From contig NZ_FXTB01000009.1 in assembly GCF_900182605.1 (NCBI RefSeq), forward strand, positions 62,001-126,000: 64,000 bases of DNA, read 5' to 3'. Under the pieces are notes generated by a model. The model ran no database searches and had not been told where the DNA came from. It saw nothing but the letters and a program-made list of their open reading frames with translations. Numbering within the stretch: position 1 is the first letter of the stretch; every line of letters starts with the position of its first letter. Position numbers and translations under genes: made by a program. Below, one piece after another: positions 56,731 to 58,673 of this stretch. The DNA comes from Saccharicrinis carchari (GTDB lineage Bacteria > Bacteroidota > Bacteroidia > Bacteroidales > Marinilabiliaceae).

Positions 56731-56761
56731 CAAAAGTACCACAATCCATTTATAAACGAAA
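56731..56761 (-). promoter_or_regulatory. Promoter of the acyltransferase gene
   Basis: On the minus strand TACTTTTG (complement of 56731-56738) is an exact -7 consensus; TTTC (56758-56761) stands exactly 19 nt upstream, one base off TTTG. Transcription would begin near 56724, 17 nt before the start codon at 56707. This also decides the start choice. Confidence 0.65.
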
Positions 56762-56939
56762 TACTTTATTTCATTTTGGATAAAATCATCTAAAATCACT
56801 TCCAAAATATGGAACAGATTCCATTTTTTGGCATTTTTTGTTTTGTTGTAATCTGTAATGCTCACACAATCAGCAGTAATCGATTTTTGGCATGTCAATT
56901 GGATTGCGGTAAACGAATACAAACACAAACACACAAGTT

Positions 56940-57287
56940 ATGATTAAAATTAAAACACTCCGTAATATCGTTTTGATTTCCTTCACCAAAAACGATCGCT
57001 GTAGCAGCGAAGATATATCTAATTTTAAAAACGAACTCATTTACAAACTGACCACACCCTTCACAAATGTATTAATAGACCTGGAGGGGGTAGATATGAT
57101 TAATAAGGAAATTGTGGATGCTCTTGTAGCAACGCAACGATTGTCGGAGATGAATGAATGCCAGATAAGTTTATTCAATCTTCACGTACAAGTATATAAA
57201 GCATTAAGGCTCGCAAAGGCAGACCACATGTTCTTCTTTTGTGATGAGCCCAAGCCATTTTCGCAAGATATTTTAATGGCTTCATGA
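56940..57287 (+). CDS. STAS-like protein without an obvious phosphoacceptor
   Basis: A 115-residue protein with the beta-alpha pattern of a STAS domain (anti-sigma-factor antagonist-like): NVLIDLEGVDMINKEIVDALVATQ as the core, LFNLHVQVYKALRLA as the C-terminal helix. The usual D-S-x-G segment with a phosphorylatable Ser is replaced by INKEIVD, so it may not be regulated by phosphorylation. No anti-sigma kinase or phosphatase lies nearby. The first of three hairpin repeats begins 2 nt after its stop codon. Confidence 0.72.
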   Translation: MIKIKTLRNIVLISFTKNDRCSSEDISNFKNELIYKLTTPFTNVLIDLEGVDMINKEIVDALVATQRLSEMNECQISLFNLHVQVYKALRLAKADHMFFFCDEPKPFSQDILMAS

Positions 57288-57289
57288 TA

Positions 57290-57359
57290 GTGTTGTGTTG
57301 ATTCAATACCGGAAGTTGCTAATTCTTGTCCCCACTTGAACAACTTTCGGTATTTTTTT
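57290..57359 (+). ncRNA. Hairpin repeat element, copy A
   Basis: The copy opens with GTGTTGTGTTGATT (57290-57303). The stem AATACCGGAAGTTG (57305-57318) pairs with CAACTTTCGGTATT (57341-57354) over 14 bp with one G-U, around a 22-nt loop containing TTGTCCCC. Seven T residues follow (57353-57359). It can act as terminator for the STAS gene, but the conserved leader and its two relatives suggest a specific RNA element. Confidence 0.65.
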
Positions 57360-57423
57360 CAACAACATCGTTTTGTGTATTGCTATTTTTGCAATAAACA
57401 TTACCTTAGCAACCAGTAATTAC

Positions 57424-57483
57424 GTGTTGTGTTGATTGATGCCGGGGGTTGTATATTTTGTCCCCAAAATTATAACTCTCGGT
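57424..57483 (+). ncRNA. Hairpin repeat element, copy B
   Basis: The same 14-nt leader GTGTTGTGTTGATT begins at 57424. Downstream ATGCCGGGGGTTGTA pairs with TATAACTCTCGGTGT through about 15 bp, five of them G-U; the loop again contains TTGTCCCC. The stem has changed in sequence but kept its pairing. No T-run follows, so this copy is not a classical terminator. Confidence 0.6.
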
Positions 57484-57547
57484 GTTATTCAGGTTAGATA
57501 TATGCTTGGTGCAACTAGTAAAGTTGCATATGACCCAAGCTAAAGAT

Positions 57548-57618
57548 GTGTTGTGTTGATTGATACCGAGATTGTTTTTTGTCAAATTTTTGACTGGAGC
57601 AATTCTCGGTATTTTTTT
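57548..57618 (+). ncRNA. Hairpin repeat element, copy C
   Basis: The leader GTGTTGTGTTGATT begins at 57548. ATACCGAGA (57563-57571) pairs with TCTCGGTAT (57604-57612) and an adjoining TTG/CAA, with one bulge. The loop holds a small inner hairpin GTCAAA/TTTGAC. Seven T residues follow (57612-57618). Confidence 0.63.
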
Positions 57619-57683
57619 GCGCCGGATCACAATGCGACACACCATCTACCACGGATTGCTTATTCAGAAGGCGAGGCGGTTAA

Positions 57684-58673
57684 TTAAAACCGCTTTATGC
57701 CAATGATTTCTCTTATATCACGAATGGTTTTTTCGGCACTTGCCTGGGCTTTCTCACGCCCCATGTTAACTACTTTATTCAAGTAATTGGCATTGGCCTT
57801 TATATCCTCAATTTTTTCTCTTATCGGTGTATTAAACAAGATGATGTCTTCGGCCAATTGTTTTTTTAAGTCGCCATATCGAATTTCGCAACTGGCATAT
57901 TTGTCCTTAAAATACTGGAGCGTATCGGGTGAAGAGACCACTTCCATCAGGGTAAATAAGTTTTGCACCGGCTCCGATACGGGGGAGTTGGGTTCGCTTG
58001 GACCGCTATCGGTAACAGCGCTCATTACTTTTTTACGTAAAGCCTTTGGCTCATCTGCTAAATAAATACCGTTTCCTTCCGATTTCCCCATCTTACCTGA
58101 ACCATCCAGGCCGGGTATTTTTATTAACGCATCACCGTAATTAAACGGCTGAGGTATTTTAAAATATTCCTGCTTATACATGTGGTTAAAGCGGTTGGCA
58201 AACTTACGTGTCATCTCCAGATTTTGCTCCTGATCTTTACCTACAGGCACTTTATCGGCATCATGAATTAATATATCACATGCCATCAGTACCGGGTAGT
58301 TGAGTAGTCCTGCATTTACGTTGTCGGGCTGTTGTCGGGCTTTGTCCTTGAACGAAGTGGTGCGTTCCAACTCGCCCAGGTATGCATTCATGCTCAACAA
58401 TAGAGTCATCTCGGCAACGGCAGGCACATCGCTTTGTATGTAGAGTGTTGCCTGTTCGGGATCCAGTCCGCAGGCTAAGTATTCGGCCAACACTTGTTTA
58501 ACATTATTGTGCAGGTTTTCGGGTGTTGGATGGGTGGTCAATGAATGGTAATCGGCAATAAAAAAATAGCAATTGTATTCATTCTGCATACGCAAAAAGT
58601 TTTTTACCGCTCCAAAATAATTTCCCAAATGTAAGTTTCCGGTGGGCCGGATACCGCTCACTACCGTTTGCAT
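57684..58673 (-). CDS. trpS: Tryptophanyl-tRNA synthetase
   Basis: TrpRS charges tRNA-Trp. Class I signatures are present: HLGNYFGAVKN (HIGH-type) near residue 16 and GKMGKSEGN (KMSKS-type) near 195. At 329 residues it is full length. The gene is divergent from the CPBP protease, with a perfect palindrome in between, and its 3' end faces the three hairpin repeats. GCGGTT and AACCGC at its stop can form a short stem. Confidence 0.97.
   Translation of the reverse strand: MQTVVSGIRPTGNLHLGNYFGAVKNFLRMQNEYNCYFFIADYHSLTTHPTPENLHNNVKQVLAEYLACGLDPEQATLYIQSDVPAVAEMTLLLSMNAYLGELERTTSFKDKARQQPDNVNAGLLNYPVLMACDILIHDADKVPVGKDQEQNLEMTRKFANRFNHMYKQEYFKIPQPFNYGDALIKIPGLDGSGKMGKSEGNGIYLADEPKALRKKVMSAVTDSGPSEPNSPVSEPVQNLFTLMEVVSSPDTLQYFKDKYASCEIRYGDLKKQLAEDIILFNTPIREKIEDIKANANYLNKVVNMGREKAQASAEKTIRDIREIIGIKRF

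Follow-up and report, generated by a model that had tools for sequence, protein, structure and literature searches.

Tandem hairpin units with a shared leader behind a STAS-domain gene in Saccharicrinis carchari: putative sibling small RNAs, a conserved start-codon partner and a decoy-like RNA

Immediately downstream of a STAS-domain gene in Saccharicrinis carchari, a 14-nt leader occurs three times in a row, each copy running into a hairpin. The locus lies in a 64-kb stretch of contig C9 (the window, that is, the whole stretch of DNA analysed), in a genome of 4.64 Mb, and raises a simple question: do such repeated units merely terminate transcription, do they bind a protein or soak up another RNA, or are they themselves a family of regulatory RNAs, and if so, with what do they pair?

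The base-pairing small RNAs (sRNAs) known to have been studied by experiment in the Bacteroidota come mostly from gut Bacteroides. Another case is Rfp18 of Flavobacterium psychrophilum, according to the accessible part of its source (PMC9723704). The reading preferred below, with tandem siblings, one seed, a start-codon target of frozen sequence and a predicted decoy in one genome, would give a marine lineage a ready-made system. It would also make testable the control of type IX surface proteins by start-codon occlusion and RNA decoys where no RRM_1 protein was found.

The array in the window and in related genomes

The leader, GTGTTGTGTTGATT (14 nt), stands without mismatch at 57290, 57424 and 57548, with spacings of 134 and 124 nt as originally predicted (Table 1), and no leader-like site with fewer than two mismatches was found in the window outside the array. 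On the forward strand each unit folds better than its dinucleotide shuffles (z = -3.8, -5.8 and -5.6 for A, B and C). The opposite strand gives -3.2 for A and -6.0 for C, but only -0.5 for B, which has no fold there; since the stem of B depends on G-U pairs, of the kind that the original prediction had invoked, the forward strand is indicated as the sense strand. In the unit folds only 3-4 of the 14 leader bases are paired, near the 3' end, and the remainder is free; in 100-nt stretches extending beyond the hairpin, the leader is able to pair with downstream sequence in some copies.

Table 1. Coordinates of the array, its flanking elements and the unlinked partners of the leader (window positions unless a locus or contig is given).
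Feature	Position	Strand	Remarks
Sigma-54-type promoter-like element, TGGCAT-N5-TTG	56888..56901	+	upstream of STAS gene
STAS-domain gene	56940..57287	+	115 aa; stop codon abuts unit A
Unit A	57290..57359	+	leader 57290-57303, hairpin 57305-57354, T-run to 57359
Bacteroidota-type promoter-like site, TTG-N19-TACCTTAG	57380..57409	+	ends 14 nt before leader B
Unit B	57424..57491	+	leader 57424-57437, hairpin 57437-57487
Unit C	57548..57618	+	leader 57548-57561, hairpin 57562-57613, T-run 57612-57618
PKD gene	L232:2246-7186	-	1,646-aa protein, own genome
A/C-loop noncoding element	~C3:166,260-166,400		own genome, unlinked to array

Other details of the original description fared unevenly. Small hairpins had been proposed for the gaps between copies, and the spacers do fold, but weakly (z = -1.5 and -2.0). 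A T7 run follows units A and C and none follows B, as had been noted; this is true of the window, but not of G003, G007 and G008, where unit B is followed by T5-T6. The loop motif TTGTCCCC(A), described as common to A and B (57326-57335 and 57458-57466), marks a genuine class difference: TGTCCCC is present in 14 of 15 A/B-type units and in none of the seven C-type units. No conserved complement of this motif was found in five loci and the window. Antisense open reading frames (ORFs) overlie the array in the ORF listing, and a protein-coding reading was rejected as unsupported, the loops and spacers diverging freely among relatives. Beyond the array, a trpS-like gene (named by eye) comes next in the window, at 57684-58673 on the opposite strand, and in G003, G006 and G008 a universal-stress-protein-like ORF, also recognised by eye, lies downstream on the same strand.

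A covariance search of relatives had been proposed as a check, and it returned the same array, with compensatory changes, in seven genomes of the genus. Exact copies of the leader are present in 11 of the 61 genomes searched (own plus 60 relatives), and the arrangement of STAS gene and array is syntenic in seven of the nine genus genomes (G000 and G003-G008), with three units each, or four in G005, giving 22 units in total. Over its first 12 bases the leader is invariant in all 22, whereas loops and spacers are divergent; the distance between the starts of B and C is only 88-89 nt in G003 and G008. A model built from the units (R1) gives E-values below 1e-12 in the seven array genomes only, among 71 genomes of the family; the best E-value in the other 64 is 2.9e-6, outside the genus. 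At E <= 0.01 the number of matched family genomes rises to 26, the weak matches not having been inspected singly. Unit A itself scores 1.0e-21, high by construction as it is part of the model. In a class sample of 395 genomes the own genome was the sole one to pass at E 1e-6; whether other genus members were included in that sample is not shown, and the family and class searches used stricter filters.

The absence of copies elsewhere had been named as grounds for refutation, and the outcome is mixed: in the own genome the R1 search places hairpin units at the array locus only, but the array is present in relatives, and whatever else matches the leader strongly does so as its complement (treated below). 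A scan of a GTDB collection of 257 billion bases with GTGTTGTGTTGATTGATNCC matched nine records. Five have two matches at the array spacing (loci not read in detail), namely Labilibacter marinus, L. sediminis, Plebeiobacterium sediminum, P. marinum and a Saccharicrinis MAG; a sixth, L122, is the A/C-loop RNA described below; the remaining three are a Moraxella, a gammaproteobacterial MAG and an actinobacterial MAG, and a few chance matches are expected given the amount of sequence scanned. At several loci in other genera, one plain terminator-like hairpin was seen by eye 3' of the STAS gene, from which the array looks like an innovation of the genus. An Rfam search, also proposed beforehand, yielded no family match at gathering score in the window. 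Permissive scans of seven and ten loci gave three and six matches, all below gathering scores, and at E <= 2 over the ten loci no sRNA family matched the array units.

That the stems covary and are under selection for structure, as the original prediction held, agrees with the alignment of the 22 units from seven genomes, evaluated against 500 shuffles with a structure specified by the analyst. Stem cells are paired in 94.6% of cases, five stem pairs are changed on both sides (equalled in 1 of 500 shuffles), and the covariation score of 0.281 (shuffles 0.201 +/- 0.019) was reached by none of the 500. The number of further pair types was not above the shuffles (405/500). Unguided RNAalifold recovered the same stem, with both-sided changes in six of its nine pairs.

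The STAS assignment rests on a Pfam match of 7.1e-05, at 23.0 bits for a cut-off of 22.6. The gene adjoins the array in all seven array genomes and was found in the same seven of nine genus genomes; since the downstream neighbours differ between genomes, the array appears to travel with the STAS gene and not with any downstream gene.

Upstream of unit B, TTG-N18..21-TAnnTT[TA]G is present in five of the seven genomes, while two show just the -7 box. Where complete, the site has the form TTG-N19/20-TAnnTT(T/A)G and ends 13-16 nt before the leader, a pattern which we take to be of the Bacteroidota promoter type. Mononucleotide shuffles contain such a site by chance in 0-19 of 1000 cases per unit, and the full site is absent before all 15 other units, including A and C. 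Unit A, for which no promoter of its own was seen and no transcript data were available, probably forms the 3' end of the STAS transcript. Before the STAS gene lies TGGCA(C/T)-N5-TTG, presumably a sigma-54 element as judged by the consensus. STAS loci numbered 30, of which 27 were examined (L128-L154); 25 of these have the element 39-52 nt before the start codon, a count made without a shuffle control, and genera without the array are among them. Sigma-54 regulation of the system is inferred and put forward as a suggestion; the sigma-54 regulon of F. psychrophilum includes gliding motility and exported proteins, as far as the available part of the report goes (PMC9723704).

A generic terminator scan placed no forward-strand site in 56750-57700 and left the three unit hairpins unflagged. 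Each hairpin is probably also the terminator of its unit, although this role has not been shown; the original statement that the elements are not simple terminators therefore holds for the whole unit and less so for its hairpin.

Complements of the leader at unlinked loci

Outside the array, the own genome contains a sole exact leader match (C2:7167), antisense to the start of a gene for a secreted protein that combines PKD repeats with a C-terminus of the type IX (CHU_C) kind; a PorP/SprF gene follows it. Against the NCBIfam type B sorting model the protein scores 33.7, just short of the cut-off (35). Exactly those seven of nine genus genomes that have the array and the STAS gene also have the PKD gene. 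In all seven, the leader complement lies at what we read as a GTG start codon, the frame being open further upstream, with a longest perfect stretch of 12-17 nt and a duplex energy of -21.5 to -29.9 kcal/mol.

Two tests address whether this site is held at the level of its bases. Among the seven 1.5-kb 5' regions around the PKD start, the words common to all comprise three 9-mers, two 10-mers and one 11-mer, every one of them falling within the complement of the leader. The 11-mer, TCAACACAACA, occupies position +8 in each gene, and no 12- or 13-mer is shared by all seven regions. Over the first ~500 residues (432 in G006), 22 asparagine, glutamine or histidine residues are invariant in the seven genomes, and their codon is invariant in three, precisely the three within the site, compared with none of the 19 elsewhere; for all two-fold residues outside the site, the codon is invariant in eight of 59. 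This frozen codon choice implies that bases are held there and not amino acids alone. Within 250 nt upstream of the PKD gene, neither a sigma-54 nor a Bacteroidota-type promoter was found in any of the seven genomes. Pairing of the leader with a secreted-protein mRNA at its start codon is predicted in all seven genes, in silico only.

Scanning near matches to the leader also uncovered a noncoding element, here termed A/C-loop RNA (its transcription being inferred), which is present in eight of the nine genus genomes and in none of 62 other genomes of the family. Its parts are GGTATC, an A/C-rich loop of low complexity and variable length, the closing arm GATACC (not the same in every genome), a core of 25 nt, and a hairpin with its T-run. 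Loop and 5' arm are complementary to the leader and the stem foot over 19-20 pairs in all eight genomes, at -25.2 to -33.6 kcal/mol. The core, TATATAGTTAAATGTAGTTCTAGGC, has no mismatch in the eight (L178-L185, 1501-1525, +) and may be a second seed.

The A/C-loop RNA comes after a hydrophobic-looking ORF of 48-55 aa. In the own genome the ORF has 51 aa and no Pfam or NCBIfam match. By eye, a TGGCA(T/C) element lies upstream of the ORF in eight of eight genomes, with a -12 part that fits the consensus poorly. The next gene after the A/C-loop RNA in the own genome encodes an NtrC-type sigma-54 activator/response regulator (Response_reg, Sigma54_activat, HTH_8); a similar gene start follows in five other genomes, again by eye, and such a start was not seen in the stretch inspected for G003 and G008. 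G002, a draft, has an A/C loop with a perfect 20-nt match, together with the transglycosylase site described below, yet lacks the array, the STAS gene and the PKD gene; either the array has been lost, or the assembly missed it, or the A/C loop has another use.

How strong these complements are was judged against leader duplex energies over 2,539 segments of 100 nt from the 64 kb. None reaches -25 kcal/mol, the best being -24.8, inside an ORF. All eight A/C loops and three of the seven PKD sites are stronger. The four others (-21.5, -21.9, -24.4 and -24.8) do not beat this background, and the case for them consequently rests on conservation and position. At E <= 0.01 in the own genome, R1 finds the three units and three leader-type matches. 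Of these matches, one lies antisense to the PKD start, another to the A/C loop and the third to the 5'UTR of a transglycosylase-SLT gene. The invariant leader's complement led to the predicted target and decoy at once, a route of discovery that can be reused.

Proposed mechanism, rival explanations and known systems

The explanation that we regard as probable is that the units are sibling sRNAs which repress the PKD surface protein through a 5' seed and are opposed by a decoy RNA. What computation shows is limited to the units with their conservation and covariation, the complementarity kept across genomes, the frozen codons and the promoter-like sites; transcription, processing, repression, the role as decoy and any sigma-54 control are inferred. 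Each unit would be an sRNA of about 65-75 nt (a predicted length) that begins with an unpaired 5' seed, GUGUUGUGUUGAUUGAUACC, and continues into a hairpin acting also as terminator, the last six seed bases serving in addition as the hairpin foot. Unit B would be made from its own promoter, unit A together with the STAS mRNA, and unit C via read-through or from an unrecognised promoter. The seed is predicted to pair with the first codons of the PKD mRNA, cover the start codon and so block the start of translation, a direction of regulation that is itself inferred. The A/C-loop RNA may mimic the start of that mRNA in an open loop and titrate the sRNAs. Such a model accounts for leader, mRNA site and loop being held together though their surroundings drift, and the small-RNA reading of the original prediction gains support from the promoter-like site before B and the conserved partners of the leader.

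Several observations weigh against it. Units A and C have no recognisable promoter, and transcript data are lacking; the short distance between B and C in G003 and G008 makes a single multi-unit transcript possible; and covariation between seed and target cannot be demonstrated because the first 12 seed bases are invariant. The generic scan, too, recognised none of the hairpins as a terminator. Being rich in A and C close to a start may in itself be useful for translation, and in G002 the A/C loop is present although the array, the STAS gene and the PKD gene are all missing. A bolder version, possible but in our judgement doubtful, is a three-part RNA switch under sigma-54, in which the STAS-linked sRNAs would silence the PKD protein and the A/C-loop RNA would release it, the two RNAs setting a surface-protein state (adhesion or gliding) and the copy number of 3-4 fixing the threshold.

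The main rival reverses the roles of the two RNAs: the array would be one sponge RNA, whose 3-4 leader copies soak up the A/C-loop RNA, the latter being the real regulator and acting via its invariant core. A sponge is usually built from complementary sites repeated one after another, as the leaders are in the array, and the mismatch-free 25-nt core in eight of eight genomes and the near contact of units B and C in G003 and G008 are further points in its favour. The PKD start and the A/C-loop RNA, however, agree in sense, which leaves the leader as the only one of the two RNAs able to pair with that start, and the frozen mRNA site (7/7) is left unexplained by a sponge. Moreover, a hairpin closes every one of the units, and B is preceded by a promoter-like site of its own. 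We consider the sponge unlikely.

Could the units instead do no more than terminate transcription, one after another, downstream of the STAS gene, each hairpin being preceded by a recognition sequence? T-rich stretches do follow the hairpins, most strongly after C, and a single simple hairpin follows STAS at several other-genus loci (by eye), but no terminator needs a leader of which 12 bases are the same in all 22 units and whose complement turns up again at conserved sites, nor does the generic scan score these hairpins as terminators; this reading is very improbable. Least probable of all is that the leader is a protein-binding site, either titrating an RNA-binding protein or acting as a DNA operator, and that its complements reflect a second use of A/C-rich sequence. 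Protein-sponge RNAs do carry a repeated identical motif beside hairpins, much as here, and the A/C loop is low in complexity and variable in length; a reverse complement of up to 20 nt between unlinked loci, conserved in 7-8 genomes, would nevertheless be unexpected of such a site.

Among known systems, the sibling-sRNA reading is closest in architecture to FopS of Bacteroides thetaiotaomicron. As described in the part of the FopS paper that was available, these are multicopy sRNAs of ~65-70 nt in which a conserved, unpaired 5' seed precedes a terminator hairpin; they have sigma-ABfr promoters, bind the start codon of outer-membrane protein mRNAs and block translation, and their 14 loci are intergenic (9), antisense (4) or 3'UTR-derived (1), with mainly SusC genes as targets (PMC11697453). 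Of this architecture, the array units show a mostly free 5' leader and a conserved hairpin, their length being predicted and the terminator role of the hairpin, which the generic scan did not flag, inferred; pairing is predicted at a start codon, here in 7/7 PKD genes; unit A, as the probable 3' end of the STAS mRNA, recalls the 3'UTR-derived member. Unlike FopS, the units form a tandem series of 3-4 copies downstream of a STAS gene (that paper nowhere uses the word 'tandem'), and the predicted target is a type IX PKD protein and not SusC. The units also have no Rfam match, whereas a FopS model was deposited according to the same text (PMC11697453), its presence in the Rfam copy used being unverified. 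Nor was RRM_1 (PF00076), the domain of an RbpB-type partner, found in the own genome, in a search whose control was positive in two of 14 genomes, including Bacteroides ihuae. The resemblance is one of predicted architecture, and identity of the array with FopS has not been shown.

The SisA-D siblings of Caulobacter share one 10-mer seed, depend on Hfq and have differing promoters, and the sponge CrfA carries the complement of that seed, to judge from the available portion of the source (PMC12559287). The common 12-nt seed of 22/22 units is comparable, their separate expression as sRNAs being inferred; so is the unlinked A/C-loop RNA, with its seed complement of 19-20 pairs in eight of nine genus genomes and its transcription likewise inferred. 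By contrast, the Caulobacter RNAs are alphaproteobacterial and Hfq-dependent, and the opposing RNA here is only predicted and, in the own genome, lies beside a sigma-54 activator gene. OmrA and OmrB of E. coli, as described in the same partial source (PMC12559287), are encoded in tandem and have almost the same 5' end, through which they pair with several mRNAs and repress synthesis; the tandem units with a shared 5' seed are alike in this, although OmrA/OmrB are two copies and Hfq-dependent. In the literature collection searched, the leader was not found as RNA or DNA letters, and no report of an sRNA in Labilibacter was found.

Other leader matches and further candidate targets

Across the nine genus genomes, the exact leader matches outside arrays number nine: five PKD starts, one A/C loop, the rpoD 5'UTR of G002 and two others; a reversed-pattern control gave two. 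Loci L009 and L028 carry exact matches at no known conserved site. With up to three mismatches, G000 has 31 leader-like sites, array included; outside the array, the six with 0-2 mismatches were inspected and the 22 with three were left out. Altogether, 29 candidate loci were inspected and four (L169, L170, L174, L086) had no site, although L169 holds the A/C-loop RNA.

Further targets were evaluated with 200 mononucleotide shuffles per site. L158 was rejected, its match looking like a chance one antisense to an ORF. The STAS 5'UTR was likewise discarded, with weak pairing and 2 to 56 of 200 mononucleotide shuffles as good; its start was taken from a wrong ATG in G007, and L135 and L147 of the eleven outgroup rows look likewise wrong.

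In the 5'UTR of rpoD, no convincing site was found in G001, G003, G004, G007 and G008 (20-139/200), and G006 had no match; the sites of G000 and G005 are weaker (5 and 8/200) than those of the two G002 copies, L213 and L221, in which AAAT(C/T)AACACAACACACAC lies ~40 nt before the start and 0 and 1 of 200 shuffles were as good. Upstream of the transglycosylase-like gene, the site is unconvincing in G007 (10/200), G001 (43/200) and G008 (175/200). In G003 it runs up to the ATG, with 5/200 shuffles as good, and in G000, G002, G004, G005 and G006 it lies 14-16 nt before the ATG, matched by only 0-2 of 200 shuffles.
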